Shown: positions 19,081 to 49,040 of the stretch, piece by piece
How positions within the stretch are numbered: the first letter of the stretch is position 1
Layout of the letters: every line of letters starts with the position of its first letter
Assembly: GCF_000321415.2 (NCBI RefSeq)
Contig: NC_019902.2
Span: forward strand, 1,984,001-2,048,000
Source of the DNA: Thioalkalivibrio nitratireducens DSM 14787
Lineage (GTDB): Bacteria; Pseudomonadota; Gammaproteobacteria; Ectothiorhodospirales; Ectothiorhodospiraceae
Reading direction: 5' to 3'
DNA: 64,000 bases
Notes under the pieces: generated by a model
The model's input: only the letters and a program-made list of their open reading frames with translations
The model's database searches: none
Told to the model about the DNA's origin: nothing
Program-made: the position numbers and the translations under genes

Positions 19081-19214
19081 GCCCCTGCCCCTCCACGCCG
19101 ACAGCCTTTTCCCCGCGAGCGGGCGAGGCGAGAAGGGCCCCTCCTGCGGTCACCGAGGATGGGTTGGGGAGGGGGCGAGTGCACGCCCCGCCGTGAAACG
19201 ATAGGCGACGAATG

Positions 19215-20036
19215 TCAGAGAGGCCAGGGGTGCAACTTCGCTCCCAGGCTCTGAAACAGGCTCAGGTAACTGTGATCGGTGATCAGCGGCGATGCCAGTA
19301 CCGCGACGACATTGAATGCAATCACGATCAGCACGAACCAGGCAGCGCCGCCGAGCCGGCGCTGCCAGGGCAGGTGCTCGGGGATCTGCAACAGTTCGGC
19401 GTCCTGCGCCCGTTCCTTCTCCGTGCGTGCGCGACCGGATGCCGCGCCGGGCGCGAGATAGCCCTCATCGCTGGCCGCCCGCGCCATGTCCGCCTTGCGG
19501 AACAGCAGCACCCGCGCCGAGAAGAAAACGTCGACCGCCTTGATACCCAGGCCGCGGAAGGCGCCGCCGACACGCAGCAGCCGACCCAGCCGCGCGAACA
19601 GCGAACCCGCCCGGCCCGTCACCGCGCCGAGGCGCCCTCCCAGCAGGCCGGCACGCGTCGCACTCTGCGCCCCGGCCACACCGGCGTTCACACCCGTGTA
19701 GCTCAGCAGCGTGAAGGCGAGAAACACCAGCGCAACGTCGAACTTGGTATCCCAGACGGTCCAGGCCGTACGATGCAACCCCGGCCGATAGCCCAGGTAC
19801 CCCTTCTTCAGCCACTCCAGCAGGATGTGGACAGCGACCACCGCCAGCAGCCAGAAATAGCTTACGAACACGCTGAGCACGATGGTCAGGGTGACATAGG
19901 CCGAGGCGAACAGCAGGCTGCGGTCGTGCCGGACGATCCATGCGCGCACCGGACCCATCCCGGCCAGCGGATCCGCAACCCGTTCGACCGAGGGATCGAC
20001 CTCCGGCACTTCGACCGCCGGTTCGCCGTCGTGCAT
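19215..20036 (-). CDS. Unknown inner-membrane protein, four predicted helices
   Basis: I do not recognise this 273-residue protein. Hydrophobic segments lie at about 40-65 and 65-80 (ASAYVTLTIVLSVFVSYFW, LLAVVAVHILLEWL), 100-120 (VALVFLAFTLLSYTG) and 232-252 (GGAAWFVLIVIAFNVVAVL). Between the last two is a soluble Gly/Arg-rich stretch, GLLGGRLGAVTGRAGSLFARLG, cut here at a natural boundary. The N-terminus is acidic. It is convergent with glnD and divergent from hrpB. The spacer toward glnD carries a GC-rich repeat-like stretch around 19105-19170. A scaffold or transport role is possible but not shown. Confidence 0.7.
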   Translation of the reverse strand: MHDGEPAVEVPEVDPSVERVADPLAGMGPVRAWIVRHDRSLLFASAYVTLTIVLSVFVSYFWLLAVVAVHILLEWLKKGYLGYRPGLHRTAWTVWDTKFDVALVFLAFTLLSYTGVNAGVAGAQSATRAGLLGGRLGAVTGRAGSLFARLGRLLRVGGAFRGLGIKAVDVFFSARVLLFRKADMARAASDEGYLAPGAASGRARTEKERAQDAELLQIPEHLPWQRRLGGAAWFVLIVIAFNVVAVLASPLITDHSYLSLFQSLGAKLHPWPL

Positions 20037-20206
20037 GAATTGCCTCCGCTGCAGTATCCCGGTGACAGTTTAGTGGACCGGGTGGCGGCAGACCAGATGG
20101 CGCCACGAAACGCATCGCGCCGGCCAGGCCTCGGCGCCGCTGGCCAGTTGCGCCGTACCGCCGCTATGATCCCGGCCATGACCAGCCCCCGCCGTCACGG
20201 CTCCGC

Positions 20207-22687
20207 TTGAATACGGAGCTGCCCGTCGCCACGGTCCTGCCGGCCCTGGCCGCGGCCCTGAACGACCCGGGCGTCGCATTGCTGCAGGCCCCACCCGGTG
20301 CCGGCAAGACCACCGTGGTGCCGCTGGCCCTGCTGGACGCACCGTGGCGCCGGGACCGGATCCTGCTGCTGGAGCCCCGGCGGCTGGCGGCGCGCGCCGC
20401 GGCCCGCCGTATGGCGACGATGCTCGGCGAACGCGTCGGATCCACGGTCGGCATCAGCACTCGGGTCGAGCGCAAGGTCGGACCGGGCACCCGGATCGAG
20501 GTTGTCACCGAGGGCATCCTGACCCGGCGCCTGCAGCGCGACCCGGCGCTGGAAGACACCGGCCTGGTGATCTTCGACGAGTTTCACGAACGCAGCCTGC
20601 AGGCGGACCTCGGCCTGGCACTGTGCCTGCAGGCCCGCGAACTGCTGCGCCCCGACCTGAGGCTGCTGGTGATGTCGGCGACATTGGAAACCGGGGGCAT
20701 CACGCGCCTGCTGCCCGCCGCCCCGGTCATCCGCACCGAGGGCCGCAGCCATCCCGTGCATATCGACCACCGCCCTCCGGCGCCGGCCCCCGCACGTGCG
20801 GCCGATGCAACCGCAGTCGCCGTGAAACGGGCACTGGCGACCCTCCCCGGCAGCATCCTGGTCTTCCTGCCGGGGCGGCGCGAGATCGATCGCGCAACCC
20901 ACGGGCTCGAGGCCTTGGCAGGATCCGGAATCCGGGTCACGCCGCTGCACGGGCAGATGCCTCCCGAGGCCCAGGACGAGGCGATCCGTCCGGCACCGGA
21001 GGGAACGCGCAAGGTCGTGCTGGCCACCGACATCGCCGAAACCAGCCTGACCATCGAGGGCATCGCGGTGGTGATCGATTCCGGGCTGGCGCGCAGGCCG
21101 CGCTTCGACCCGCGCCGCGGACTGAGCCGGCTCGAGACCGTGCGAATCAGCCGGGCGAGCGCCGCCCAGCGCTGCGGCCGTGCCGGCAGACTGGGTCCGG
21201 GAGTCTGCATCCGCCTGTGGTCGAAATCCGACGAGCAGCGGCTGCCTGCTCATGCGTCACCGGAGATCCTCGAGGCCGACCTCGCGCCGCTGGCGCTGAC
21301 TCTCGCCTGCTGGGGCGCCGACGCGGACGAGCTCGCCTGGCTGGATCCCCCGCCGGCACCCGCACTGGCCCAGGCGCGCGACCTGCTGCAACAGCTTGGC
21401 GCACTCGATGACACCGGCACGGTTACGGTACACGGGCGGGCGATGGACGCGCTCGGCACGCATCCGCGAGTTGCGCACATGCTGCTGACCGCAAACGAAC
21501 GTGGCCTGGGATACGAAGCGGCGCTGCTGGCTGCGCTGCTGGAGGAGCGCGACCCGTTGGACCGGGCGTTGGCCGGCAGCGACATTCGTGCCCGACTGCG
21601 TGCCCTGACGGCAACCGACGCGTCGATGTCATCGGCAGCGCGCCGTCGGCTCCGTACCCAGGCGGCCCGGTGGGCGAAGCAACTGCAATGCCGGGAGCCC
21701 GCGCAGCTCGATCCCGAGGTCGCCGGCGCACTGCTCGCCCTCGCCTACCCGGATCGGGTCGCGCTGCGCCGCCCGGGGCCGGAGGGCCGCTTCCTGCTGG
21801 CGAGCGGGCGCGGCGCGTTTTTTCCGCGCGAGGATGACCTCGCGCAGGCCCCCTGCATCGTCGCGGCGGTTCTGGATGCCGGCCAGCGCGAGGCGCTGAT
21901 CCATCTCGCGGCACCGCTGGACCGCTCCGCCCTCGCGTTCCTGCTCCCCGGACTGGTGCGCAGCGAAGAACACGTGGAGTGGGACGCCGACGCCGGAGCG
22001 GTGAACGCCCGCGTCGAACAGCGGCTGGGCGCGCTGGTGCTCGAGAGCCGGCCGCTGGACGGCGTCGCTCCTGAGGTCGCAGCCCGGATGCTGCTCGACG
22101 CGGTCGCGGCCCGGGGCCCGGAATCGCTGCCCTGGACCCCGGAGAGCCGCAGGCTGCGCGCGCGCATGGCTTTTGCCCGCGCACAGGACGGCGACGCCTG
22201 GCCGGACGTCAGCGACGAGGGGCTGCGCCGTATCCTGCACACCTGGCTCGCGCCCTGGGTCACCGGGATGGGCCGGATGAGCCACCTGCGCACGCTGGAC
22301 CTCGGCGCCGCGCTGCGCGCGCTGCTCGACTGGCCGCAGCAGCAGCGACTGGACCGCATCGCGCCCACCCACCTGACGGTACCCAGCGGCTCACGCGTAG
22401 CTATCGACTACGGCGACCCTGGCAACCCGGTCCTCGCGGTCCGGATCCAGGAGGTTTTCGGCTGGTCCGATACGCCCCGGATCGGCAATGACAGCGTACC
22501 ACTGACTCTGCATCTGCTCTCGCCGGCGCGGCGGCCGGTGCAGGTGACACGCGACCTGGCCGGATTCTGGGCGCGCACCTACGCTGAAGTGAAGAAAGAC
22601 CTGAAGGGGCGCTACCCGAAGCACGCCTGGCCCGATGACCCGCTGAACGCCCGGGCGCTGCGTGGCACGAAAAGAGCACGGCAGTGA
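20207..22687 (+). CDS. hrpB: ATP-dependent RNA helicase HrpB
   Basis: HrpB is a DEAH-family helicase of unclear cellular role. The 826-residue protein has Walker A PPGAGKTTVVPLALL at about 29-43, DEFHE (the DEAH box variant), SATLE, VLATDIAETSLTIEG, and QRCGRAGRLGPG, followed by the HrpB-specific C-terminal domain. The start is TTG at 20207; MNTELPVATVLPAL aligns with family N-termini, no ATG is available in frame, and the codon overlaps a TGA that closes a tiny upstream frame. It runs convergent to the DUF4124 gene. Confidence 0.94.
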   Translation: MNTELPVATVLPALAAALNDPGVALLQAPPGAGKTTVVPLALLDAPWRRDRILLLEPRRLAARAAARRMATMLGERVGSTVGISTRVERKVGPGTRIEVVTEGILTRRLQRDPALEDTGLVIFDEFHERSLQADLGLALCLQARELLRPDLRLLVMSATLETGGITRLLPAAPVIRTEGRSHPVHIDHRPPAPAPARAADATAVAVKRALATLPGSILVFLPGRREIDRATHGLEALAGSGIRVTPLHGQMPPEAQDEAIRPAPEGTRKVVLATDIAETSLTIEGIAVVIDSGLARRPRFDPRRGLSRLETVRISRASAAQRCGRAGRLGPGVCIRLWSKSDEQRLPAHASPEILEADLAPLALTLACWGADADELAWLDPPPAPALAQARDLLQQLGALDDTGTVTVHGRAMDALGTHPRVAHMLLTANERGLGYEAALLAALLEERDPLDRALAGSDIRARLRALTATDASMSSAARRRLRTQAARWAKQLQCREPAQLDPEVAGALLALAYPDRVALRRPGPEGRFLLASGRGAFFPREDDLAQAPCIVAAVLDAGQREALIHLAAPLDRSALAFLLPGLVRSEEHVEWDADAGAVNARVEQRLGALVLESRPLDGVAPEVAARMLLDAVAARGPESLPWTPESRRLRARMAFARAQDGDAWPDVSDEGLRRILHTWLAPWVTGMGRMSHLRTLDLGAALRALLDWPQQQRLDRIAPTHLTVPSGSRVAIDYGDPGNPVLAVRIQEVFGWSDTPRIGNDSVPLTLHLLSPARRPVQVTRDLAGFWARTYAEVKKDLKGRYPKHAWPDDPLNARALRGTKRARQ

Positions 22688-22706
22688 CCGGGGGAACCGA
22701 AGTGCA

Positions 22707-23327
22707 TCAACGCCGGCGTTCAGCAGGCCAGGGCGGCGCCTGGAACTCGGGCGCCCGACGCGGCTGGACGAACTCGGGCGCCCGACGCGGCTGGACGAAC
22801 TCGGGCGCCCGACGCGGCTGGACGAACTCGGGAGCTCGACGGGGCTGCGTGAACTCCGGTGCCCGAACACGCGCGGACGGGTCTTCGGGCGGCGGGTGCC
22901 GCAGGTGGGGCGGTCGGTGTCCGGGAGGAAACCAGCCGCCCGGACGGTAGTGCCGGTACAACGGCCAGGGATAGTACCGGATCTCGACCGATCGCTCCGG
23001 CGGAGGCTTGGCGGCCGGCGGGTCCGGCCAGGGTGGCTCACGCGCTGCGGCGCGTTCCTCGCGCTGGCGCCGCTCTTCGGCCAACGCGTCCGCGAGCCGC
23101 CGCCATTCCCGGGCGCGCTCCCGGGCGGCCTCAATCTCATCCTCGGATGGATCCGGCACGGGGCCGAGCTCCCGGTACTCCCGCCCCGGCGGTGGCCGGT
23201 CCGAGTAGATCATCCGGCCGTGTTCATCGACCCACTGGAAGATGCCCTGCGCCGCCGCCGGCGGCACCGGGCCGAAAGCCGCCACCAGGCACAAAAAAAG
23301 CAAGGGCGTGAGTGCTCGGACCCGCAT
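22707..23327 (-). CDS. Exported DUF4124-domain protein with Pro/Arg-rich tandem repeats
   Basis: The 206-residue product has a signal peptide ([19 protein letters not shown], cleavage near AAA-QG), a DUF4124 domain right after it ([21 protein letters not shown]), a charged helical segment (about 65-100, rich in E and R) and a C-terminal tail of repeats [12 protein letters not shown]4124 proteins are envelope proteins of unknown function. The start at 23327 is chosen because it begins the signal peptide; the frame is open 16 codons further. It lies 58 bases after a tRNA gene on the same strand. Confidence 0.82.
22743..22877. repeat. 27-bp tandem repeat, five units, inside DUF4124 gene
   Basis: Three identical units (22743-22769, 22770-22796, 22797-22823) are followed by two diverged ones (22824-22850, 22851-22877). 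Each encodes nine residues, read on the minus strand as RAPEFVQPR. Perfect identity of three units points to recent expansion, and copy number could vary between strains. Confidence 0.9.
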
Positions 23328-23385
23328 GGCCTCTCTCCACACGCCGGGGAGGGCCGCGCCCCAGCGGGCGGGCATGCCCCGAATC

Positions 23386-23462
23386 TGGCGTCCCCGGCAG
23401 GGTTCGAACCTGCGACCTGCCCCTTAGGAGGGGGCCACTCTATCCAGCTGAGCTACGGGGAC
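23386..23462 (-). tRNA. tRNA-Arg (anticodon CCT)
   Basis: The full cloverleaf is visible on the minus strand: acceptor GTCCCCG pairs with CGGGGAC, the D-arm has GCTCAGCTGGATAGAG, the anticodon stem GCCCC/GGGGC encloses CTCCTAA with anticodon CCT, and the T-arm is GCAGG-TTCGAAC-CCTGC. G73 and CCA are encoded. It reads AGG codons, which are rare in genomes of this composition. Confidence 0.97.
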
Positions 23463-23472
23463 CTGAAGGCCG

Positions 23473-23478
23473 ATTATA
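23473..23478 (-). promoter_or_regulatory. -10 element of the tRNA-Arg promoter
   Basis: A perfect TATAAT lies on the minus strand with its downstream edge 11 bases before the first tRNA base, so transcription would begin a few bases upstream of the mature 5' end. No convincing -35 hexamer is seen at 16-18 bases. Confidence 0.65.
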
Positions 23479-23666
23479 ACGCCTTGGGCGCGGATCGCGG
23501 GCCTCGATGTTGCCACGGTGCGCGCGGGGTAATGCAGCGCGCGGGTCCTGCTGGGCGAAAATGGCGCAAATGGCCCACCGCCCTCCCCGACCGCGGAGAT
23601 CCGGAGCATACCGATGAACATCGACCTCGCCCTGCGCAGCAGGTGCCAACGCATCGGGGCAACCCG

Positions 23667-23996
23667 ATGACCGCGACACCCCCCCGGCCTCGCAATGCCG
23701 TCACACTGCTGACCCCGCTGATCGGCATACGCGGCCGCTTTCAGGGCCGCACCCTGGAACTGGTCGAGGTGCTCGCGGACGGACCGCAAGTGGCCCTGCT
23801 GGACCTCAGCTCAACTCCCGGAATCCAGGCGAACCAGTATGGCGATCCGCTCTCCCGCCAGCCGCGGACGCTGACCATCCCGGTGGTAAGCCCGATCGAT
23901 GACGACATCCATCCCGCGCTGCGGGAACTGCTGCCCGAAGCGATCCTCCTGCAGCTGCGCAGCCTGAACGATGCTCGCGGCCTGGCAGGAGACTGA
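23667..23996 (+). CDS. Small protein of unknown function
   Basis: This 109-residue protein is not recognised. It has a basic, Pro-rich start (MTATPPRPRNAVTLL), a beta-rich centre (IGIRGRFQGRTLELVEVLADGPQVALLDL) and an acidic helical end. There is no signal peptide or membrane segment. The ATG at 23667 overlaps the TGA of an 18-codon open frame at 23614-23670, which itself has a GGAG at good distance; that could be a leader peptide coupled to this gene, or chance. Confidence 0.55.
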   Translation: MTATPPRPRNAVTLLTPLIGIRGRFQGRTLELVEVLADGPQVALLDLSSTPGIQANQYGDPLSRQPRTLTIPVVSPIDDDIHPALRELLPEAILLQLRSLNDARGLAGD

Positions 23997-24339
23997 GATT
24001 CGAGCTACCCCTGCAACTTCGGCCACAGGTCGTAGACTGCCGTATCGGCGGGATCCACGAGGATCCCGACAGCCTCACGGGCTGGAGTCTTGAATTCGAT
24101 GCGATGCCTCCGGCCAAAGACAGCGGTCCAGGACTCGACGCATGGTACCGGAATGCCGGTTTAAACCAGCCAGCCCTCAACAGCGGAGACCGTGCTCCCC
24201 ACCTTTCGCACAAAAAACCATTCCACGAGCGCGGGTAGACGCCTATACTTTTGGGAAGCACATTCAGGCGCTAGACGCGGCAGCCCGCGACATGGTCACG
24301 ATGGTCGTGTGTTGAAACTGGCGCATTCGGTATCATGCG
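23997..24339 (+). other. Spacer with a possible gene remnant
   Basis: No complete gene is supported. An open frame without a clear start runs to a TAG at 24236-24238 and reads like protein (FELPLQLRPQVVDCRIGG, then LTGWSLEFDAMPP). Its GGCTGGAGTCTTGA is shared with the RHS gene at about 24640, where GFGWSLEF is encoded. It may be a broken piece of an RHS-like gene, but the match is short. Confidence 0.3.
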
Positions 24340-26413
24340 GTGAGCGAACACGAACCCGGTGGCCCGGTCCCTCGGCACGCACGCACACCGAGATCGCGAC
24401 GCCTGTCCCTGCGCGACACGCCGGCAACTTGCCATTCCCACCACTGGTTGCCATGGTCGTTACTGGCCACCATCCTGATCGCCGCACTCTGCTCGCCAGC
24501 ACTTGCGGGGTTCACCACGGTATCCCCGCAGGGTGAACTGCAACGCGTGGAGACGGACGCCTGGCTAACGACACCAACGGGTTTGGTGCCAATCACGCGT
24601 CGTTACCACAGCAGCCTTCTGGAAGACACGCTGGGCTTTGGCTGGAGTCTTGAGTTCGCCTGGCAGGTGCATCGGATCGACCCGGAACGCCGTCTCGTCA
24701 CTAGCCCCGCAGGCGCATGGACCTTCCGCGGTGACCGGGAGGGGGGCTACCTCGGGCCGGAGGGCGCCGTTCTGATCGTCGACGAGGGCGCATACAGGCT
24801 GGCCCTCCCCGGCGGTTCGTGGATCGCATTCGACGCCGAAGGCCATGAGCGTCTGCGGGAAGACGCCAACGGGAATCGGATCCGCATCGCCCGGGATCAG
24901 CAGGGACGGGTCACCGAGATGGTCGGCGGCCCCGAGACCACTTTCAGATTCTCCTACCATGCCGACGGAAAACTGCGCAGCTTGGAGGATGACCAAGGAC
25001 GCCGGGTCAAGTACAGGTACGATGACCGTAGCCTGCTGAGCGAGGTGGTCGACGTCGACGGGCGCACCCTGGCCTACGGATACGACTCCATCGGGCGCCT
25101 GGAGGCCGTCGAGTATCCCGATGAACGCCGGGAAGAATACCGGTATGACGACCTTGGGCGCCTGAGTGAACGGGTGCATACGGACGGCCGGACCGAGTGG
25201 TTCGCCTACGATGGCAGGACGCTGCGAGGCTCGGATTCTCGGGGCGATGAGTGGGTACAAGCCCATGACGATGAAGGGCGGCCACTGTGGCGCACCGACG
25301 CGTCCGATACGCGTGAAAGCTGGGCTTGGAACGATGCAGGGCAATTGCTCGAGCGAACATACCCCGACGGATCCTCGGTCCGCCTGAGCTATGATCGCGA
25401 CGGGCGGCTGCTGAGCCAGGAGGCTTCGACCGGCACCTACCAATGGTTCGACTACGACGCTCCGGGCGGGCGCCTGCGCGCCCTGGATGCCAATGGCGCG
25501 CTCACACGCTTCGAATACGCGCGTAGCCAAGAACTGCACTTCGCCTACGACCCGGCCGGTCGCCTCGTGGAGAAGCAGACGCCGGATGAGATCTGGCGAC
25601 ATCGGTACGGGCCGAACGGAGAGCTGCTGGAAAGCAACATCGCCTGCGATCACCCGCCCATTTGCTATGAGGAACACCTCGGGTACGCCCCGATACCCGG
25701 ACCCGGCGGACAACGGTATTGCGGACTTGCTCCCGATCAGACCCGGGAATGCGGACATAAGGGCCTACCGCCGTGCCCCGGTCCGGACCCGTGTCGGGGC
25801 TTTAGCCTATTCAACGAAGGCGCCCCAATCTGCATTGCCTGCGGGCGGGTTGGCAACCCCTGCTGCGAACGCTATGCAGAATGCCACGACAAGACAGTTT
25901 GCGTGGACGGACGATGCATGACGCAAGGGGAGATGATCCAGACCATTGCCGAGCGTTACGAGGTGATCGGTACTGAGGGTGCAATCGTGCGGGATGTTGT
26001 CACCGGCCTGGAATGGCAGCGCTGTAGTCTGGGACATACCTGGGACGGGCAAACCTGCGTGGGCGAGGCTACGGGCTACACGCAGAGGGAAGCACAACAG
26101 GCGGCAAGCGAAATCGCAGGCTGGCGGCTGCCCACCATCGAGGAGCTGCGAACGCTGGTGTTCTGCTCCAGCGGTGAACCGGCGCGGTTTTTCGACCACG
26201 ACACCCGTGACCGCTGCCGGGGCCAATTCCAGCGGCCAACGATCGTTACCGAGGCATTTCCCAATACTCCAGAAAGCTTTTTCTGGTCGGCCTCGCCTTT
26301 TCCCGCTCCCCCCTCGAGACCGCGCATGGGGTGTCAGCTTCTACGCTGGCATAGACGGGTGGGGCTCTAAGAGCGGTTACAGCTTCGAGGTTCGGTTGGT
26401 GCACGACAGATAG
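24340..26413 (+). CDS. Exported RHS/YD-repeat protein with Cys-rich segment and DUF1566 domain; one-base frameshift near the end
   Basis: A GTG start at 24340 gives a long basic leader and a hydrophobic signal (SLLATILIAALCSPALA), so the protein is exported. Next come an RHS-type N-terminal part with GFGWSLEF (about 98-105), about ten YD repeats (YRYDD, AYGYDSIGRLEAVEY, RYDDLGRLSERV) to about residue 430, a Cys-rich part (about 440-530, with NPCC and VCVDGRC), and a DUF1566/Lcl-like domain (DVVTGLEWQRCS, WRLPTIEELRTLV). As read, the frame ends at 26370 in a nonsense tail. Removing one C from CCCCCC at 26308-26313 restores RAWGVSFYAGIDGWGSKSG and a stop at 26413, the normal DUF1566 end. No PAAR, T6SS or toxin domain is seen. 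Confidence 0.85.
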
Positions 26414-26510
26414 TAATCTTTGGTTCTTCGTCGTTGCATGTGATCCACGAATGCGTCAGCGATGATTGACCAGCAGATGGCGCCGGATCCTTTGAGAAGG
26501 AGTTACGATC

Positions 26511-26885
26511 ATGGATAAACGTTCATACCGAACTGCAACCCATCGACGTGCTCGCCTTCTGCGCGCTTATTGGGCACTCGCCACCATAGTACTACTGGTG
26601 ATGACATCGCCCGGCATGGCCCAGCAATCCTATAGCTTCCAGCCCTCACCCGCGCTGGCAGCGCTCTTCCAGCAGATCGAGAACACCATGCTCGTCGACC
26701 GTGGGCTCACCTTCCAACGGTTCCAGAACGCCCTCGATTCTGGGCTACCGGACCGATCGGGATCCTGCGTACTGGACAGATCCAGCGCCTCAGCAACGGC
26801 CGCCCGCGACACGTGCCGGTGGCACTCCGGGGTGGTAATCGGAACCGCGATCCCGGTGGCGACCGGTCTGAATGGCCGACACTGA
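26511..26885 (+). CDS. Small secreted protein, unknown; probable frameshift
   Basis: The unbroken frame gives 124 residues: a basic start, a signal peptide (LATIVLLVMTSPGMA, cleaved before QQ) and QSYSFQPSPALAALFQQIEN. AAGGAG precedes the ATG. After about residue 75 the translation turns into low-quality Ser/Ala/Arg sequence. Removing one C from CCC at 26731-26733 gives instead FQNASILGYRTDRDPAYW, then TDPAPQQRPPATRAGG and a TAA at 26836-26838. That looks like genuine protein and leaves 90 bases before the next gene. Function is unknown; it shares the strand and export of its neighbours. Confidence 0.55.
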   Translation: MDKRSYRTATHRRARLLRAYWALATIVLLVMTSPGMAQQSYSFQPSPALAALFQQIENTMLVDRGLTFQRFQNALDSGLPDRSGSCVLDRSSASATAARDTCRWHSGVVIGTAIPVATGLNGRH

Positions 26886-26928
26886 TTGGGGCCCACCGCA
26901 TAGGTGAATGGCGATGCGAGGAAATCCC

Positions 26929-28548
26929 ATGAACACCGAGCACGAACGCGAACCTTGCTCCAAGCCTTGGCCAGCCCTGCTCGCGGGCTGTCTGATCGCC
27001 GCAGCTTTTCTTGCCCTGTCGCCGCTGGACGCGGCGACCACGGCTGGCGGGCCTGCGGAACCCGCAACCATCTCTCCTGAGGCGCTGACCAACCCCGCAG
27101 GTATCGCATTGGCACGAGCCGGCGAGGCTCCACGGTTGCGAACGCCGATGACCGAGCCCCCCGAACTCGCCCGGCAACGCCTGCTCGAGATGCTGGGCCC
27201 GAATACACCAGCTCGGGGTGTCCGGTTTCACGTGCTGACCGTCGGGCAGAGCCCACGCGACCTGGTTCGAGCAGCACTAGGTACGCCCGGTACGTCTTCC
27301 CAGACCGAGGCTGCCTGGGACCAAGGCGCAGTACTTGATCTCCTGTTCCTGAGCCGCCTGCTGGCCGGGTTCGACGAAGACGGGATCCTGCAACAACTGA
27401 TGCTGGAACCTCGGGTTCCGTTGGCCGTCAACGAATTGGAGGCGGCACTGGCACTCGGGCCCGCAAGCGGTTCGCGCCCCCACCCGACCCGCCAAGGCGA
27501 ACTACGCTCCCACCGGGCTTCCGGTGCGGTGCTCGGAGTCGACGGCGAACAGGTCTACGCGATCTGGCTGTTCCCGGATACGCGGGACGCGGCCCGAGCG
27601 CCACCCGCCACTCGGCAGGTGGCGGAGTTCCCGTCCGCGAAGGCACGCCTTATTCGCGCGGCACGCGATGGCGACCTGGATCGCCTGAGGGATCTGGTGC
27701 ACCTGGCGAACCACGTGACGACCGTGGATGCATACGGGCGCACACCGCTGCACCATGCTGCGGCTCACGGCCACGTCGCAGCAGTCGAATTCCTCCTCGA
27801 ACAGCCGTCGTTACCACCTTGGACTGAAGCAAGAGAGGCGCCGCCCACGGTGCTCGGCGAAGGCCTGAGCGCGCCACGACCTGCCCTGCGTTTCGACGAT
27901 TTCGTAGACCTTATGCGCCAGCTCGAGGCACGGGACGGGCAAGGCCTGACACCCCTGCATCTGGCAGCGACAGGCGGGCACGAGGCTGTGGCCAAAGTCC
28001 TGTTGGACGCCGGCGCGGACATCAACGCCTCGACCGAGGATGGTGTTACCCCCCTGCACCTCGCAGCTCGCCATGGAGCCCCGGCGCTCGCCGCGACACT
28101 GATCGCTCGAGGTGCGGACACCAGCGCACCGGATGCAGCGGGTCGGCCGCCGGTCGACTGGGCACGCGACGATGCCATGGCCCGCAGCATCCGGATGGCG
28201 ACCGACACCTATCGGCGACAATCCGGTTACCAGACGGCATTCGAGACACTCGAGCGCTTTCTGCAGGGTGCACAACAGGGGAACATCGACGCCGTGCGCA
28301 GGACGGTGGCCGAGTTCCCCGACGGGATTCTTCCTTTGCTCGAACCAGACTCTGGCGCTTTCGATTACCAGATTCGGCGTTTCCACGCGGTCGGCGGTCG
28401 GGCCCGAGCGCAGGGTTTCCTCGAACTTCACGACGCGCCGCCGAATTGGGATCGTTTCCAGTTCGAGCTCTTGCTCGAGGATTGGACCGGAGACGACGAC
28501 TGGCGGGTGACGGATTCGCGGGTCGAGCCCACGGGTGAGCAGCCATGA
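26929..28548 (+). CDS. Exported ankyrin-repeat protein
   Basis: The 539-residue product begins with a signal peptide (LLAGCLIAAAFLALSPLDA). A region of unknown fold follows (about 40-240). Ankyrin repeats occupy about 245-430: LIRAARDGDLDRLRDLV, GRTPLHHAAAHGHVAAVEFLL, GLTPLHLAATGGHEAV, GVTPLHLAARHGAPAL. A tail of about 110 residues follows (FLQGAQQGNIDAVRRTVAEFP is one more repeat-like helix pair). I chose the ATG at 26929 because GAGG lies eight bases upstream; another ATG exists at 26908. It overlaps the next gene by ATGA. Ankyrins bind proteins; the target is unknown. Confidence 0.8.
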   Translation: MNTEHEREPCSKPWPALLAGCLIAAAFLALSPLDAATTAGGPAEPATISPEALTNPAGIALARAGEAPRLRTPMTEPPELARQRLLEMLGPNTPARGVRFHVLTVGQSPRDLVRAALGTPGTSSQTEAAWDQGAVLDLLFLSRLLAGFDEDGILQQLMLEPRVPLAVNELEAALALGPASGSRPHPTRQGELRSHRASGAVLGVDGEQVYAIWLFPDTRDAARAPPATRQVAEFPSAKARLIRAARDGDLDRLRDLVHLANHVTTVDAYGRTPLHHAAAHGHVAAVEFLLEQPSLPPWTEAREAPPTVLGEGLSAPRPALRFDDFVDLMRQLEARDGQGLTPLHLAATGGHEAVAKVLLDAGADINASTEDGVTPLHLAARHGAPALAATLIARGADTSAPDAAGRPPVDWARDDAMARSIRMATDTYRRQSGYQTAFETLERFLQGAQQGNIDAVRRTVAEFPDGILPLLEPDSGAFDYQIRRFHAVGGRARAQGFLELHDAPPNWDRFQFELLLEDWTGDDDWRVTDSRVEPTGEQP

Positions 28549-30320
28549 GATTGCCAGAAATGCATGCGACATGTGAACGTCGGGCGGCGCGAGACCTGCC
28601 GGGTCTCCCTTCGCGAGCAGGGGGGCGCGAGACCACGATACATCGGCAGACCATCCCCCGTCTGACGCACAGCCTGGTCGCCATGCTCTGTGGCCTTTTC
28701 TTGACCGGCTTCTACCCGACCCCTGCCCTCGCGGATCCCGATCCCGCACGCCCGGACCCCACTCAGCTGCTGACTGCACAACTGGAGCGACTTCAAATCA
28801 AACTGGAGCCCTGGGAACAACGGGACCAGCTCGAGCGTGAGCGAGCCACACTGAGCGCGCTGCTCGAAGGTGACGGACCAGAAGATCCGAACTCGCTACT
28901 CGGAATTCAGCGCCGCATCGATGACATCCGGCAACAACTGGTCCAGGCCCAAGAGCGTCTCGAAGTCGCGAACGAGCGTTTCCACCTGTGGAAAATCGAC
29001 CTGGGCATGCGCGTGTTCGACGGCGAGCCGGGAATCTGGCCGGTCGTCGACTGGCTCAATTTTCGGCAAACCATCTGGTACTTGAACAGCACGATGCGCG
29101 CCCAGGAACGCGAGTTGCGCCGCGAAATCGCCGCAGCGCAACAAGCCGTGCGCGACCAGGCGGAATTGCAACAGGAGCTGCAGCGACTTGAGCAGCGACG
29201 GCTGGACATGCCGCTACGCAGTGACTGGCCGCAGGAGTACCGGGAAATGGACCTTGCCGCACTCCAGCAGCGCTTCAAGGAGGTCGAACACCAAATCGAA
29301 ACCGCAAAACGGATGGATCTCAGCGAAGTACGCGAAAAGCAGAAAACCGTCGCCATGCTCAGCCGTCAGATCGAGGCCTCGATCGACCGTACCGCCGCGA
29401 CCGGTCGACCGAGCGATTGGGAAGACATACGGGGCACCTGGTCGCTCGAGGAAGCGCAGGATTGGTGGGAGCTCACCAACACGCTCGGTTTGGTTCCGTT
29501 GCGTTCGTTTCTCAAAGCGCCCTCGGGGATGCAAAAGCTGCTGCCACGGCATGCCGGGGAGTTTATTACCCGCGATCATTTCGTCGAGCGGCTTACAGAA
29601 GCACTATTGCTGGGCGAAATCAGCCCCGAACGTGCAATCCGGTTAGCCGATGAGTTCCGCCTCGCCTCGCGCGAGTTCAGGGGCTCGTTCCAGGAGTTCC
29701 TTACTGTAGCCGCAAATACGGATGACTTCCTGGATCCGCCCCGACCCGCCCCGGAACCGGTACCACCACAGCCCGAGCCGGATGATGAAACCCCGACTAT
29801 CCAAGACGAGGAAGTGGATCCAGCGGCCTGCCGGAGATTGCGTGGAAGGCTGAACCAGATCAATGGACAACTCGAACGATTGCAAGCCAGTTGGGACAAG
29901 GGCACCTATGAACAAAAGAGCCCCCGTTTCCATTGGCCCCCTTCCAAACGTGGATTAGAAGAGCGCTTGGAGCGTGAACGTAATAATTTGCAGGATTTCA
30001 TTGACGCAGGCGAAGATGCAAGGGTAACGGATGACAACTTCACAATCTTTCGCACAAAAACTCTCAGCGGAATCAAACGCACAATCGAGTCTTACAGAAA
30101 GCAAAACGCCCCGAGCGGGGTAGAAAATTGGTCGAGACAAATTCCCATATGGCACGATGGTCGTGCCCGGATGATTGCCGAAATGCAAGAAAGGATAGAG
30201 AAGACTGCACGTGCCCTCGTGCTGCTCAGGAGACAATACGAAGAAGATCTCTCGGAGCGGCGGGCACAGATCTCGGAGATCGAATCCGAAATGGTGAGAT
30301 TGCGTTGCCAACACCATTAA
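28545..30320 (+). CDS. Exported coiled-coil protein, unknown function
   Basis: The 591-residue product has a long N-terminus before a signal-like segment (SLVAMLCGLFLTGFYPTPALA, ending near residue 64); the true start could be the internal ATG at 28683. Most of the rest is Glu/Gln/Arg-rich heptad sequence: LERLQIKLEPWEQRDQLERE, MRAQERELRREIAAAQQAV, LEERLERERNNLQDF, ISEIESEMVRLRC. A Pro-rich hinge (DPPRPAPEPVPPQPEPDDE) splits it at about 402-420. No catalytic motif is visible. Base composition falls toward AT near the 3' end (29950-30300), unlike the chromosome backbone. It is coupled to the ankyrin gene by ATGA. Confidence 0.7.
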   Translation: MRLPEMHATCERRAARDLPGLPSRAGGRETTIHRQTIPRLTHSLVAMLCGLFLTGFYPTPALADPDPARPDPTQLLTAQLERLQIKLEPWEQRDQLERERATLSALLEGDGPEDPNSLLGIQRRIDDIRQQLVQAQERLEVANERFHLWKIDLGMRVFDGEPGIWPVVDWLNFRQTIWYLNSTMRAQERELRREIAAAQQAVRDQAELQQELQRLEQRRLDMPLRSDWPQEYREMDLAALQQRFKEVEHQIETAKRMDLSEVREKQKTVAMLSRQIEASIDRTAATGRPSDWEDIRGTWSLEEAQDWWELTNTLGLVPLRSFLKAPSGMQKLLPRHAGEFITRDHFVERLTEALLLGEISPERAIRLADEFRLASREFRGSFQEFLTVAANTDDFLDPPRPAPEPVPPQPEPDDETPTIQDEEVDPAACRRLRGRLNQINGQLERLQASWDKGTYEQKSPRFHWPPSKRGLEERLERERNNLQDFIDAGEDARVTDDNFTIFRTKTLSGIKRTIESYRKQNAPSGVENWSRQIPIWHDGRARMIAEMQERIEKTARALVLLRRQYEEDLSERRAQISEIESEMVRLRCQHH

Positions 30321-30333
30321 AGGAGGACATTCC

Positions 30334-32673
30334 ATGCTACGTACCGAACACGATTCCGGCCTAACACGACCAGTTTCCCGCTCGGTTTCGCAGCGACTGC
30401 TCGCCCCGCTGGTACCCGCATGCCTGCTTGCGCCGCTGCTGGCAGCCCCGGTGGCGGCAAGCGATCTTCCCAACCTGATCGGTCTTGATGCGCCGGACAC
30501 GGCCGCCGGACTCGAACGGCAGGCGCAGGAAGAGAGCGAACAGTTTCGTGGCGCGCTCGACGCAGAGACGACCGAAGCGCGGTTCGAGATCACCCTGGCG
30601 GCACCGGGCAGCCTGGAACTGACGGCCGAAGCCGGCGCTGACCTGACCATTCAACTGTTCCTGCTCGATCTCAACGGGACACGCAGGATCGCGGCCGATC
30701 AGTCCGGCGTATCCGCCACACGCTCCGTTCGCGCCGATGGGCTCGCCGCGGGCACCTACTTCGCGCAGGTGGGACGCAGCAGCGGGAGCGGCACCTTCGT
30801 GCTGCAGAGCCAACCCGCCCTGCTGGAGGAGCCCGGCGATCCGGAACCGCACGGCACCCGGGACACCGCGCGGGGCATCGAACCGAGCTCGTCGGTTCGG
30901 GGGCATCTCGGGTTCGGCAACGTCGAAGGCACCAATACCGAAGACTGGTTCGTACTGACCACCGACAACCCTGGACAACTGCAGGTCAACGTCCAGGGCG
31001 ACGAAGGACTCGCTCTGCAGCTTTACCTCTACCACCAGGAGAGTGGCCGGACGGTGGCGTCCGACACCTCGGGCACTGCGGCCTCCCGGGCGATTACGGC
31101 CGAAGCCCTGGCTGACAGCACCTGGCTGCTGCAACTGCGTCGACGCTCCGGTCACGGCGGCTACCGGCTCGACACCGCGTTCGCACCGGCGGCGGAGATC
31201 ACCCCGCCGGTAGCCTCCGACCGTCGCGACGAGGCTCCGCTGGCGGCGCTCGACACGCCCCGGGTCGGGCTGCTGGGCTACGGCACGCCGACGGCGACCG
31301 ATACCGAGGACTGGGTGCGCCTGCGCACCGAATCGCCCGGCACGCTGGAGCTCACGGTCCAGGGAGACGAGACCCTCGGTGTGCGGATGTCGGCCTTTCA
31401 CATCGATTCGACGCGAAGCATCGCGGCCGACAGGTCGGGCACCCAATCGGCGCGGTCGCTGCGTCTGGGCGGGCTGGAGCCGGGGGAATGGCTGGTGCAG
31501 TTGCACCGCAACACTGGGCACGGTGCCTACCGGTTCCTGCCAACGTTCGTCCCCGCGTCGGTGTCCGATGATCACGGTCCCAACGACCACCGCGACACAG
31601 CCCGCGATATCGCGCTGGGCGCAGAAACCCGGGGACTCCTCGGATACGGCATCCCTCCGAATTTCGAGCGGGATGACTGGTTCCGCGTGACGACCGACAC
31701 CCATGGCGCACTGAAGGTCAACGCCAAGGCGGAAGAGGAACTGGCCTTTCGGCTCAGCGTGTTCGCAGCCGGTCAAACGCGGGCGCTCGCCGCCGATACC
31801 GACGGGGCCGCCTCAACGCGGGCGGCCACCGCTTCGGCGCTGGCTCCCGGAACGTACCTGATTCATCTGCAACGCACCGGCGGTTTTGGCGCCTATCGGC
31901 TGCTGCCGGAACTGGTCGCGGCCAGCGGGACGAGCGATCCCGAACCCAACGATCATCGCGAACTGGCGGCTCCGATCATGCCCAATGCGGAACAAAGCGG
32001 GCTGCTGGGCTACGGCCTGCCGTGGGCGACCGATAACGAGGACTGGTTCCGTCTGCGGCTCGACGACCCCGGCCAGCTGCGGCTCGCGGTCGAAGCCGAG
32101 GAGGCCTTGACGCTCACGATGCAACTCTTCGCCGCTGGCAACACCCGCGCGCTGGCTGCCGACAGCGACGGCGCGGCGCCCACACGCGCGATCGGCCCGA
32201 TCGGCGCAGCGGCAGGCGAATACCTGATTCAACTGCGGCGCAGCGATGGACATGGGGCCTACGTGTTGACCCCCACCTTCAACCCGCAAACCGTTCCCAG
32301 CGATCCGGAACCCAACGATAACCGCGAAATGGCGCGGGCAATCGAACTGGATGAGGCGCAGGCGGGGCTCCTGGGCTATGGGCGAAGGGACGGCGGTACC
32401 GACAGCGAAGACTGGTTTCGGGTGACACTGCCGAAGCCCGGCACGCTGACCGTAAACGCTCAAGGCGAAGAGGCGTTGAGGCTCCAGCTGCATCTGTTCC
32501 GCGCCGGCGACCGGCGCGCGATCGGAGCCGACGCCCAGGGAATCAGTGCATCGCGTTCGGTCAATGCATCCGGACTCACGGCAGGCATCTATCTCATCCA
32601 GGTCAGCCTTTCCGAGGGTGCCGGGTCCTACAGCCTGACCCCGGAATTCGCGCCCGCTCCTTCGGTTCGATAA
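30334..32673 (+). CDS. Exported protein of six PPC-like beta-sandwich repeats
   Basis: A strong AAGGAGG sits before the ATG. The 779-residue product has a signal peptide (LLAPLLAAPVAAS, about residue 47) and six repeats of about 120 residues. Each holds a version of GLLGYG, EDWFRV, PGTLELTVQGDE, ALAADSDG, ALAPGTYLIQL and HGAYRLLP, joined by linkers such as SDPEPNDHRE. This fits the bacterial pre-peptidase C-terminal (PPC) fold, found on secreted proteases and as stand-alone surface modules. No protease domain is attached. Repeats 3 to 6 are most alike, pointing to internal duplication. A binding or adhesive role is inferred. Confidence 0.78.
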   Translation: MLRTEHDSGLTRPVSRSVSQRLLAPLVPACLLAPLLAAPVAASDLPNLIGLDAPDTAAGLERQAQEESEQFRGALDAETTEARFEITLAAPGSLELTAEAGADLTIQLFLLDLNGTRRIAADQSGVSATRSVRADGLAAGTYFAQVGRSSGSGTFVLQSQPALLEEPGDPEPHGTRDTARGIEPSSSVRGHLGFGNVEGTNTEDWFVLTTDNPGQLQVNVQGDEGLALQLYLYHQESGRTVASDTSGTAASRAITAEALADSTWLLQLRRRSGHGGYRLDTAFAPAAEITPPVASDRRDEAPLAALDTPRVGLLGYGTPTATDTEDWVRLRTESPGTLELTVQGDETLGVRMSAFHIDSTRSIAADRSGTQSARSLRLGGLEPGEWLVQLHRNTGHGAYRFLPTFVPASVSDDHGPNDHRDTARDIALGAETRGLLGYGIPPNFERDDWFRVTTDTHGALKVNAKAEEELAFRLSVFAAGQTRALAADTDGAASTRAATASALAPGTYLIHLQRTGGFGAYRLLPELVAASGTSDPEPNDHRELAAPIMPNAEQSGLLGYGLPWATDNEDWFRLRLDDPGQLRLAVEAEEALTLTMQLFAAGNTRALAADSDGAAPTRAIGPIGAAAGEYLIQLRRSDGHGAYVLTPTFNPQTVPSDPEPNDNREMARAIELDEAQAGLLGYGRRDGGTDSEDWFRVTLPKPGTLTVNAQGEEALRLQLHLFRAGDRRAIGADAQGISASRSVNASGLTAGIYLIQVSLSEGAGSYSLTPEFAPAPSVR

Positions 32674-32724
32674 CGGGAAAGCCGCCGTGCCGATGGGGTC
32701 GGTCCGCAACCGGATGGCAGTTCG

Positions 32725-33741
32725 ATGATCGAGGCATCGCACTCGCACCTTTCAGGGGCGAGTCGGGCTGTCCCGGTGCTGCCCGACTCCTCCCTGCATC
32801 GCCGGTCGGCGGTCAAGCACGGCCGGGCAACGGTCCGGCGATGCCGTCCGGAACGGACGCCACGGCCCTCTCGAACGTGCCGCGTCGCGGTCCTGTGCGT
32901 TGCTATTCCACTCGGATTGTTGCTGGTCCTGCAGTCCACAAACGCCTCTCCGGGAGCGGCCGTGGTGGAACCGGCCGCCGTTCTCCCTGAGGAAGCCGGT
33001 CTGGTTAAGCATTGCGAGGCTTCAGATGAACGGTCCGTTCCCTTGGCCCCGGACCCGGACGTGACCCTCCGGACCGGCAAAGCGATCGGCCAGGGTTTGC
33101 CAGGTCCCGCATCGGAGTGGCGATTCCACGGCCAGCACGACCCGACCCGGCGCGACGACGTTTGCGATGCCGCGGCGCAGGGCGACCTCAAGTTTCTCGG
33201 CGCGATGGTACGCCATGGGCTGGATATCGATATCGCCGATGACAAGGGTCGCACCACACTGATGTGTGCCCAAAACGGCGAGGTGGCCGATTTCCTGCTT
33301 CGCCAAGGCGCCGATCCGAACGCAGCGGACCGCGATGGGTACACGGTCCTGCACTATCACCTCTGGTCCGATGCCGCGCTGTCTCTCGTACCCGTGCTGT
33401 TGGAGCACGGGGTGGCTCCGCAGCGCAGCAGTTCCCCGCTGCTAAGGGAACTCGCGGTCCGCTTCATCGAGTGGCGGCGATACCACGAGGGCGAGATCCT
33501 GCTCGAGATGCTGGTCGCCGCCGGTTGGGATGTGGACGAGCGTGATCGGCACGGCGCCACCCTGCTGCACGTTGCCGCGCACAACGACAACCTGCCGCTG
33601 GCGGAGAGCGTGTTGCGCCTCGGAGCCGATCCCAGCCTTCGGGATCGTGAAGGCCAAACGGCGGCGGCCATCGCGCAGGAGCTTGGATCGTCGAGAGTCC
33701 TGTCCCGACTTCTGGAGGCCCAGGAACGCGAACAGCCTTGA
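32725..33741 (+). CDS. Second ankyrin-repeat protein, exported or membrane-anchored
   Basis: The 338-residue product has a basic N-terminus and one hydrophobic segment (VAVLCVAIPLGLLLVLQSTNA, about 53-73), either a late signal peptide or an anchor. Ankyrin repeats cover about 140-335: DVCDAAAQGDLKFLGAMVRH, GRTTLMCAQNGEVADFLL, RDGYTVLHYHLWSDAAL, GATLLHVAAHNDNLPLAESV. The start is uncertain, since the first 50 residues are not protein-like and a later start before the hydrophobic segment is possible. It closes the exported-protein cluster. Confidence 0.72.
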   Translation: MIEASHSHLSGASRAVPVLPDSSLHRRSAVKHGRATVRRCRPERTPRPSRTCRVAVLCVAIPLGLLLVLQSTNASPGAAVVEPAAVLPEEAGLVKHCEASDERSVPLAPDPDVTLRTGKAIGQGLPGPASEWRFHGQHDPTRRDDVCDAAAQGDLKFLGAMVRHGLDIDIADDKGRTTLMCAQNGEVADFLLRQGADPNAADRDGYTVLHYHLWSDAALSLVPVLLEHGVAPQRSSSPLLRELAVRFIEWRRYHEGEILLEMLVAAGWDVDERDRHGATLLHVAAHNDNLPLAESVLRLGADPSLRDREGQTAAAIAQELGSSRVLSRLLEAQEREQP

Positions 33742-34460
33742 CCGGCGAGCGTTTCGCCGTGCCTGAGATCTGGCAGCGGTAGACGAGATGCGCAGTCTGG
33801 CGATCCTTCCCTCGGCACTCCGGGTCTCCAAGGCAGATCGTTACGGGCAGGGCAAGAGTGGACCCAGCCGTGGAAATCGAATCCATGGACGGGGATCCGC
33901 CCGATCAACCGGTCGGGGCCATTGTCAACGCCCGGAACCGCAGCATCATCGCAGGGTGGCTGCTGCAAAGGAGTTTCGGGTGCGATCAGGAAGCGCCGGG
34001 GGGTACAGCCCTTCTGCGAACCGACATCCCGGCCACTTGCCCTCAGATTCCACCAGCAATGCGGCCCCATGGTCTACCCTTATCATTAAAGATTGTGTGG
34101 TCATCTGGGGCGGTTGTAGCCATAGAACCTCCAATCCCAGACGGGTTAGTCGTAATTCGCAGACATCGCAAGGTCGGCGAAGTCTCACGTTTCGGTCAGG
34201 AGCACGAAGACGTCCTTTACACGGTACCGTCACTCAATACGGGGCGCGGCGGCGTTCGCAGCTCTGCTTGGCACTTTGGCCGCGATACTCTTCACCGCGA
34301 CCGTGGCGGAATGTCTGACGTCAATTATTCTGTCCGGTCGGCAGCTACCCGATCGGCCGCCGGCCCGAGGGCGAGGCGGCAGCCGGGCCACCGCCCGGTG
34401 AGCCCCCGTCCGGAAAGGGGGAAACGACGCGTTGAGGTCCTGGCGTTTCGGGTCCCGATG
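33742..34460. other. 719-bp spacer with no supportable gene
   Basis: Open frames exist on both strands, but their translations are Arg/Ser/Pro-rich and resemble no protein. GC content dips around 34060-34160. Downstream of tesA (minus strand) are two GC hairpins, CCGGGC-cacc-GCCCGG at 34384-34399 and CCCCC...GGGGG at 34403-34421, which may end tesA transcription. This may be the decayed edge of the exported-protein island. Confidence 0.5.
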
Positions 34461-35156
34461 TCACGATTGCGGAACACCTTCCGGCTCGATCCGGACGATC
34501 AGCGGTTCGAGCTCCGCCCAGACGTTTTTCAGGATGCGTGGCTGGGCACCGGCAGCGGGGTGGATGCCGTCGTCCAGCATCAGATCGGCATCCAGCGCGA
34601 CCCCGTCGAGCAGGAACGGCAATAGTGGCAACGCGCGCGCCTCGGCCAGTTCGGCGAAGATTCCGGAGAATCGTTCCGTGTACCGCGGGCCGTAGTTGGG
34701 CGGGATCTCGATCCCGACCAGCAGCACCTGCGCGCCGGCCGCATCGATCGCGTCCAGCATCGCCTCGAGGTTCGCGCGCATCGCGCGCAGCGACAGCCCG
34801 CGCAGGCCGTCGTTGCCGCCGAGTTCGAGAATCACGAGATCGGGACGAAAATCCTCCAGCACGGTCGGCAGGCGGGTTCGGCCGCCGGCGGTGGTCTCCC
34901 CGCCTACCGAGGCATTGTGAACCTTCCAGGCCGCATCCCGGTCCATCAGGCGTCGTTCCAGCAACGTCACCCAGCCGGCGTCTCCGGCGATCCCGTGGGC
35001 CGCGCTGAGCGAGTCTCCGAAGACCAGCAGCCGATGGGGCACCTCCGGATCCGAGGCATTTCCGGCGGCGACGACAGTCCATGGCAACGCCGCCCCCGCG
35101 GCCACCGTCAGTGCCAGTACCATTGCTCTCGCGACAGCGATCAGGAAACGGAACAT
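34461..35156 (-). CDS. tesA: Periplasmic SGNH lysophospholipase/thioesterase/arylesterase TesA
   Basis: This 231-residue GDSL/SGNH hydrolase cleaves acyl esters and thioesters in the periplasm. After a signal peptide (MVLALTVAAGAALPWTVVAAG) come LLVFGDSLSAAHG (block I, nucleophile Ser), VGGETTAGG (block II Gly), LGGNDGLRG (block III Asn) and LDDGIHPAA (block V Asp and His). The ATG at 35156 has GAGG upstream. It is divergent from ybbA, as in E. coli, but here the two start codons overlap by two bases on opposite strands. Confidence 0.93.
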   Translation of the reverse strand: MFRFLIAVARAMVLALTVAAGAALPWTVVAAGNASDPEVPHRLLVFGDSLSAAHGIAGDAGWVTLLERRLMDRDAAWKVHNASVGGETTAGGRTRLPTVLEDFRPDLVILELGGNDGLRGLSLRAMRANLEAMLDAIDAAGAQVLLVGIEIPPNYGPRYTERFSGIFAELAEARALPLLPFLLDGVALDADLMLDDGIHPAAGAQPRILKNVWAELEPLIVRIEPEGVPQS

Positions 35157-35862
35157 GGATGCAACCTCGAACTCCATCGTGCAGGCACAGGGCCTGGAAA
35201 AGCGGATCGACGGACCCAGCGGCCCGCTGGACATTCTGCGCGGAATCACGCTCGCGGTCGCGCCGGGCGAGAGCGTTGCGATCCTCGGCGCCTCCGGCTC
35301 GGGCAAGTCGACCTTGCTGGGACTCCTTGCCGGTCTGGACGCTCCGAGTGCCGGAGAAGTTCGCCTGCTCGGCGAGAACATCGGCCAACTCGACGAGGAC
35401 GGTCGCGCGGCGCTGCGCGCAGGAAGCGTCGGCTTCGTGTTCCAGTCGTTCCAGTTGCTGCCGGCACTGACCGCTTTGGAGAACGTGGTATTGCCGCTCG
35501 AACTCAACCCCGCCCACGATGGCCTGGCGTCGACGGCAATCACCGCGCGGGCGCGAGAAGCGCTGGATCAGGTCGGGCTGGCCGCGCGCGCAGCGCACTA
35601 CCCGTATCAGCTCTCCGGCGGCGAACAACAGCGGGTGGCCATTGCGCGGGCGATCGTGGACCGCCCGGCAGTGCTGTTCGCCGACGAGCCCACCGGCAAC
35701 CTCGACGCCGACACCGGCACCCGCATCATCGACCTGCTGTTCCGCCTGGCCGGCTCGGGCGATGCGGGCACCGGGGCCGCGATGGTGCTGGTCACCCATG
35801 ACCCGGCGCTGGCCGAGCGCTGCGACCGCGTGATCCACCTCCAGGACGGGATCCTGGCATGA
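35155..35862 (+). CDS. ybbA: ABC transporter ATP-binding protein YbbA
   Basis: This 235-residue LolD-type ATPase has Walker A LGASGSGKST, the Q-loop VFQSFQLLPAL, signature LSGGEQQRVAIARAI, Walker B VLFADEPTGNLD and an H-loop VTHD. With YbbP it forms a MacB/LolCDE-like mechanotransmitting complex in the inner membrane, linked to tesA in many proteobacteria. The ATG at 35155 overlaps the tesA start on the other strand; a GTG at 35179 would avoid this. It is coupled to ybbP by ATGA. Confidence 0.93.
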   Translation: MDATSNSIVQAQGLEKRIDGPSGPLDILRGITLAVAPGESVAILGASGSGKSTLLGLLAGLDAPSAGEVRLLGENIGQLDEDGRAALRAGSVGFVFQSFQLLPALTALENVVLPLELNPAHDGLASTAITARAREALDQVGLAARAAHYPYQLSGGEQQRVAIARAIVDRPAVLFADEPTGNLDADTGTRIIDLLFRLAGSGDAGTGAAMVLVTHDPALAERCDRVIHLQDGILA

Positions 35863-40880: not shown

Positions 40881-41380
40881 CCTGATTATCACCGATGCTC
40901 CGCAATCTGGAACGGGCCGTCTCGTAACCACCGTCATCGCGAGGCGCGAAGCCTTTGGCCGCGAGCGCAGCATGGCGGGACGTGGCAATCCATACGGAGT
41001 TCGTCCTCCCGGCTACCTGATCATCAGGGAAGCTCCGCAAATTGGAACGGGCCGTCATCGAAACCACCGTCATCGCGAGGCGCGAAGCAACGTGGCAATC
41101 CATACGGAGTTCGTCCTCCCGGCTACCTGATTATCAGGGAAGCTCCGCAAATTGGAACGGGCCGTCATCGAAACCACCGTCATCGCGAGGCGCGAAGCAA
41201 CGTGGCGATCCAAACGGCGTTAGTCCTCCCCGCGCCGCCTGGATTATTCGCTGCGCTCACCCTGCGGGCCAGCCCGCGGCTGTTCAATGCGCTACGGGCA
41301 GGAGTGACAAGCGACGCTCGCAATGACCACCGAGACGGAACGTCTGTCGTGCTCGCTGCGGAGGTTCCGTGATAATCAGG
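40881..41380. mobile_element. MITE-like composite array with terminal inverted repeats
   Basis: The 500-bp stretch begins with CCTGATTATCAC and ends with its inverse, GTGATAATCAGG; the match extends inward about 24 bases with a few mismatches (CTCCGCA also matches). Inside, a unit starting CCTGATYATC is repeated at 40881, 41016 and 41126. Units 2 and 3 are 110 bases apart and nearly identical; unit 1 is 135 bases because of an insert of about 25 bases. Each unit carries GTCATCGCGAGGCGCGAAGC, the left end of a smaller element. There is no transposase frame. The remaining bases to 41646 hold only the leader of the next gene. Confidence 0.8.
41179..41327. repeat. Complete inner MITE copy (149 bp)
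   Basis: Ends are GTCATCGCGAG and CTCGCAATGAC, imperfect inverted repeats (GTCATYGCGAG). The interior contains GGATTATTCGCTGCG, CACCCTGCGGG and CTGTTCAATGCGCTACG. The same interior occurs at 51808-51953, so this is a dispersed non-autonomous element. The two preceding tandem units hold only its left end. Confidence 0.8.
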
Positions 41381-49039: not shown

Positions 49040-49040
49040 C

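Follow-up and report, generated by a model that had tools for sequence, protein, structure and literature searches.

Six consecutive open reading frames (ORFs), all on the plus strand, occupy positions 24340-33741 of a 64,000-bp window of the Thioalkalivibrio nitratireducens DSM 14787 genome, and raise the question of how they came to stand together and whether their products work as one system. The window is the whole stretch of DNA that was analysed, G000:C1:1984001-2048000 of a 4,002,350-bp single-contig genome (G000). The ORF list contained the six genes in the order given by an earlier sequence-only reading (Table 1), including the ATGA through which genes 3 and 4 overlap (28545-28548). 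Coding scores based on a rough training set ranked the own frame best of six for all six ORFs. The domain content described by the same reading was recovered with Pfam, gene 1 matching RHS_repeat (5e-29) and Lcl_C (9.6e-16, 58.6 bits against a cut-off of 34.9), genes 3 and 6 matching ankyrin models, and gene 5 matching PPC (2.1e-13, one significant stretch). Toxin, lipase, PAAR, VgrG and T6SS families did not reach their cut-offs in any of the six proteins in the Pfam and NCBIfam scans, as the sequence-only reading had stated for T6SS, PAAR and toxin domains, with the reservation that divergent toxins could escape such scans. Family scans of the six proteins likewise returned no secretion or assembly family and no integrase, transposase or other mobility family, and an Rfam scan of positions 20000-38000 at gathering scores returned nothing but the tRNA.

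Table 1. Features of the block and its flanks (positions in the window).
Feature	Position	Strand	Description
tRNA-Arg, conserved left flank	23386..23462	-	
Left edge fragment	24005..24160	+	matches a stretch of a 349-aa G011 ORF from another site (107 bp, 80% identity)
Gene 1	24340..26370	+	676 aa; exported-type YD/RHS-repeat protein, Cys-rich segment, Lcl_C (DUF1566)
Rest of gene 1 Lcl_C domain, other frame	26300..26413 (approximate limits)	+	
Gene 2	26511..26885	+	124 aa; small orphan ORF, hydrophobic start, doubtful coding status
Gene 3	26908..28548	+	546 aa; exported-type ankyrin protein, orphan N-terminal region
Gene 4	28545..30320	+	591 aa; exported-type coiled-coil orphan, start overlapping gene 3 stop
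Gene 5	30334..32673	+	779 aa; exported-type, six PPC-like units
Gene 6	32725..33741	+	338 aa; ankyrin protein, exported-type or membrane-anchored
Right end of insertion	33742..34331		two tested ORFs: coding score below zero, no NCBIfam match
31-bp repeat, right junction	34312..34342	+	three further copies in G000
GDSL lipase/acylhydrolase, conserved right flank	34464..35009	-	

The composition of the block differed from that of the backbone, as claimed from the letters alone. Its tetranucleotide distance was 0.170, whereas none of the 33 overlapping control windows from the same 64 kb exceeded 0.133, and its GC content was 0.639, against a control mean of 0.663 (sd 0.006). GC content in 1-kb steps along the window reaches its minimum (0.576) elsewhere, at 41001-42000. 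Alignment with the sister genome G011 ran from 19001 to 24083 (85%) and resumed at 34332, continuing as far as the compared piece extends (93%); at the site of the block, G011 carries 2,128 bp of other sequence with ORFs matching DUF6361 and DUF302. In four relatives the aligned flanks nearly touch, with 188 bp (L123), 202 bp (L124), 132 bp (L125) and 123 bp (L127) between them, while L126 was not comparable, because its tRNA match is on the opposite strand and the small ORF finds no match. In the six relatives read, the site was near-empty in four, different in one and not comparable in one. The GDSL gene on the right flank is presumably tesA-like.

Fragments were found at both edges of the insertion. 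The G011 ORF that the left fragment resembles had no Pfam match, and a reading of this fragment as a phosphoesterase found no Pfam support. The only candidate attachment repeat of the island, 31 bp long, stands at the right junction alone; its 23-base core was not found in G011 with up to three mismatches allowed. Its other copies (L144 8862-8892, L145 8933-8966 and L146 9023-9053) share 58 bp among the three. The L146 copy is neighboured at ∼0.2 kb, outside the repeat, by an ORF for a Tn5-type transposase that includes a DruA part (L146 6491-8815), and no transposase was present among the three ORFs scanned near the L144 copy. We presume that the right-junction repeat may derive from an IS21-like end; a literature search on its origin found nothing. 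The insertion relative to the sister genome and congeners, together with the edge fragments, upholds the view of an acquired block with decayed edges. The different DNA in the sister genome and the fragments at both edges would also fit a random pile-up, at an insertion hotspot, of separate exported accessory genes with their own origins and roles, an explanation taken up again below.

Gene 1 combines YD repeats with an Lcl_C domain. Its YD repeats align to a solved Rhs-family protein (E 2.7e-29) and, by our reading of the domain matches, cover residues ∼66-420. This region of ∼350 aa is about a third as long as the chains of solved structures that bear the name Rhs core (1,065 and 1,077 aa), and the RHS_core model scored 54.9 bits against a cut-off of 2000, so that a full core was not detected in gene 1. 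Because the YD part is too short, a closed Rhs cocoon is hardly possible; of the cocoon-type protein proposed earlier, the YD/RHS repeats stand, while the closed cocoon, a shell of ∼1,000 residues, is not supported. The Lcl_C match ends at profile position 85 of 117, and the last strands of the domain lie in another frame, where 26 residues align at 54% identity with the last part of an intact relative; the in-frame part is 43% identical over 131 aa to the same relative. Gene 1 is therefore broken in its last domain, through decay or a sequencing error. The Cys-rich and DUF1566 parts attributed to its C-terminus are both present, but the domain is not complete in frame.

Relatives of gene 1 occurred in 37 of 96 genomes, the own genome counted, and among the matches listed outside its own locus each covered either the YD or the Lcl_C part, never both. 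In plasmids, gene 1 matched 255 records; among the 10 matches listed, all were below 60% identity and none covered 80% of gene 1. A passage in PMC6642488 gives DUF1566 as the commonest Pfam domain of the targets of diversity-generating retroelements and mentions an rhs toxin linked with DUF1566. Gene 1 was rejected as such a target, as no template copy of its end was detected in G000 (E ≤ 0.001), and the five RVT_1 matches in G000 are all more than 300 kb away. The DUF1566-bearing end of Legionella Lcl is described in part of PMC11162425 as C-type-lectin-like, trimeric and binding glycosaminoglycans, and its authors suggest there that this end serves in carbohydrate recognition or trimer formation.

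The alignment of the YD repeats to solved Rhs proteins bears on another explanation, in which the block is the remnant of a polymorphic toxin/immunity locus, gene 1 being a worn Rhs protein and the exported ankyrin proteins periplasmic immunity proteins. A precedent is Tli, which passages in PMC10294624 and PMC11470151 present as an immunity protein that has ankyrin repeats and a signal sequence and acts against the T6SS lipase Tle. Against this, none of the toxin, lipase, PAAR or VgrG families passed its cut-off in the six proteins, and gene 1 ends in Lcl_C rather than in a toxin, behind a YD part of about a third of a shell. We consider a toxin remnant improbable.

The two ankyrin genes have relatives mainly through their repeats. 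Matches to the ankyrin part of gene 3 were found in seven of 47 genomes and matches to gene 6, mostly to its ankyrin part, in 11 of 47, the own genome counted in both cases; the N-terminus of gene 3 had no confirmed relative in genome_contigs, which detects close relatives only. The ankyrin stretches of both matched models of Dot/Icm effectors (AnkY, AnkH, AnkX and others) and of MzaA far below the cut-offs, and also the PADLOC models PDC-M72A (1.2e-15 and 2.2e-18), Ankyrin and MzaA. These matches were read as shared repeats, and genes 3 and 6 were not retained as effector or defence proteins.

Gene 5 agrees well with the six-repeat PPC-like protein described from the letters, consisting of five motif-marked units at a spacing of 122 residues plus one divergent first unit. 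In an ungapped comparison, units 2-5 were mutually 38-51% identical, and units 1 and 6, which are out of register, gave 6-13%. Relatives were found in eight of 96 genomes (own counted), the own genome having a second locus, and the matches, 34-44% identical, mostly formed part of a larger open frame; the frames span 145-2,583 aa, and the majority exceed 980 aa. Two of four such proteins scanned carried an extra domain, one PKD and one FecR. In another congener, a PPC-FecR protein lies near an outer membrane usher gene (L063 4659-11464).

The sister genome has four Lcl_C places within ∼19 kb (L051 6173-18592 and L052 2589-11469), in large proteins. In the three of these proteins that were scanned, Lcl_C is C-terminal, preceded in one case each by an S8 peptidase (subtilase), a BACON domain and an M23-fn3-PPC part; a protein combining reprolysin and PPC adjoins the cluster. 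This cluster supports the view that Lcl_C and PPC are likely modules of secreted proteins in the genus. The C-terminal segment of a Grimontia collagenase, its PPC domain included, binds collagen according to the title of PMC6168687.

Genes 2 and 4 are orphans of different standing. Gene 2 had a coding score below zero and is absent from the gene-caller output for the window; it had no Pfam match and no credible relatives in 369 genomes. A match in G385 (E 3.6e-4) overlaps an ORF on the opposite strand and was taken as chance. Its status as a gene is doubtful, and it may be no gene at all. Gene 4 also lacked a Pfam match. The coiled coil assigned to it earlier was borne out by its heptad contrast of 0.363, against 0.260 ± 0.018 in 200 shuffles, although in the number of strong heptad windows, 44, the highest of the 200 shuffles came to 45. 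Among 96 genomes it was present in its own genome only, and searches of genome_contigs and viral_contigs, both of which detect close relatives only, and of plasmids gave no confirmed relative. A 26% match in G225 (E 8e-4), the one other genome matched among 369 of the class, was taken as coiled-coil noise, as were matches to LmuB and SbcC-like models.

An early hydrophobic segment without a later membrane segment was present in all six block ORFs and in six of 33 other ORFs of the window, but the block had been picked partly for this feature, so that the comparison is not an independent one. These counts come from a hydropathy rule of our own rather than a trained predictor, and the rule has false positives, since a RelA/SpoT protein was also flagged. 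The comparison set comprised the 36 ORFs called outside the block, minus six short ones (45552, 46167, 52082, 56338, 58049 and 62727) and plus three (22707, 23682 and 34461); the window genes 45306 and 48852 are in neither list. In genes 1, 4 and 6 the hydrophobic segment begins at residues 41, 44 and 59, respectively, and their start codons are for this reason uncertain. The statement that all six carry a signal peptide or an anchor is thus sustained for the hydrophobic start, on hydropathy, whereas gene 6 has no AXA-type site. Export of the block proteins seems likely from these features. Elsewhere in the window, an OmpA-family protein, a Big_6 Ig-repeat protein, an outer membrane efflux protein, an ABC transporter and an HlyD protein follow in a row (41509-50342), an arrangement suggestive of a locus for type I secretion of a repeat adhesin.

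The intergenic gaps from gene 2 to gene 6 are 22, -4, 13 and 51 bp, and gene 1 is separated from gene 2 by 140 bp. Purine-rich sites precede genes 2 and 5. Promoter and terminator scans of the block gave nothing above chance. From the spacing, co-transcription of genes 2-6 is plausible. The common strand, the tight spacing and single overlap within genes 2-5, and the row of six export-like starts, compared with 6/33 elsewhere in the window, argue against the pile-up of unrelated genes introduced above, even though relatives of genes 1, 3/6 and 5 are found apart elsewhere. We regard such a pile-up as unlikely.

Whether the genes travel together was read from 152 loci, nine copies of the window region having been set aside, of which 92 match at least one block gene. 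Gene 1 alone was matched at 35 loci, gene 5 alone at 28, genes 3 and 6 at 28 and gene 6 alone at one; where genes 3 and 6 were both matched, it was always on the same ankyrin ORFs. No locus outside the window (0/92) had relatives of two different block genes, although this negative is limited because most of the 92 loci are short, 74 being under 5 kb and 18 being 5 kb or longer, and several of the 92 overlap. The result rests on genes 1, 3/6 and 5, neither gene 2, gene 4 nor the N-terminal region of gene 3 having credible relatives. The idea that the six genes travel together, and with it the surface-assembly or contact system proposed earlier, received no support.

The same count weighs on the reading of genes 1-6 as one co-adapted envelope or surface assembly, a complex contacting other cells or surfaces. 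It would be consistent with the uninterrupted run of six export-like ORFs sharing a strand, with the ATGA overlap and with the close spacing of genes 2-6. Nevertheless, no second locus among the 92 with matches, 74 of them under 5 kb, has two different members, gene 1 is both set apart by its 140-bp gap and broken, and no secretion or assembly family appears in the six proteins. We judge a co-adapted assembly to be quite unlikely. In a more specific form, genes 2-6, with or without gene 1, would build an undescribed envelope assembly with a coiled-coil and PPC scaffold, ankyrin gates or caps and a YD-Lcl_C surface-binding head; this we hold to be very unlikely. If the six did work together, they would represent a new kind of envelope assembly, which the evidence does not demand.

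The reading that we favor, as rather likely, makes the block an accessory island specific to its lineage and coding for exported proteins with binding or scaffold roles, in which genes 2-6 probably form one operon and function in envelope or surface binding. The island measures about 10.2 kb, and its variable insertion site lies between the GDSL acylhydrolase gene and a small conserved ORF by the tRNA-Arg gene. The products of genes 2-6, expressed from one operon, would be exported by the Sec pathway and, once in the periplasm or at the cell surface, would bind proteins or polysaccharides. The PPC units and, before the break, Lcl_C may have served as sugar- or polymer-binding modules; scaffolding through protein binding would fall to the ankyrin and coiled-coil proteins. 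Points against this reading are the lack of relatives for genes 2 and 4 and for the N-terminal part of gene 3, the derivation of export from hydropathy, the lack of a promoter above chance and the lack of an integrase or transposase family in the six proteins. The island is partly decaying, and part of it may not work, because the last domain of gene 1 is broken and gene 2 is perhaps no gene. It illustrates clearly the gain, at a variable site, of a now partly decaying block of putatively exported proteins, orphans as well as repeat proteins, by a chemolithoautotrophic sulfur bacterium of soda lakes. To our knowledge, the surface traits of this organism have been little studied.

The block was compared with the closest known systems. 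Gene 1 shares YD repeats with the Rhs/YD-repeat proteins, such as T6SS Rhs effectors and teneurins, but differs from them in its short repeat region without a full RHS core or a recognised toxin, and in ending in Cys-rich and Lcl_C parts. It resembles the Lcl/DUF1566 proteins in an Lcl_C domain above the cut-off, yet this domain is incomplete in frame and is fused to YD repeats instead of a collagen-like region. Genes 3 and 6 recall the Tli-type ankyrin immunity proteins in combining an export-like start, by hydropathy, with ankyrin repeats, but the six proteins include no lipase or T6SS family and the ankyrin similarity is generic. In contrast to the Tle/Tli pair, no cognate lipase gene was identified among the six, and the GDSL gene is a conserved flank. 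Large proteins with PPC repeats from the same bacterial family mostly exceed gene 5 in length, and gene 5 consists of PPC-like units alone. Apart from the absence of an integrase or transposase in the block, it shares with lineage-specific genomic islands a near-empty site in relatives, a deviating composition and decayed edges.
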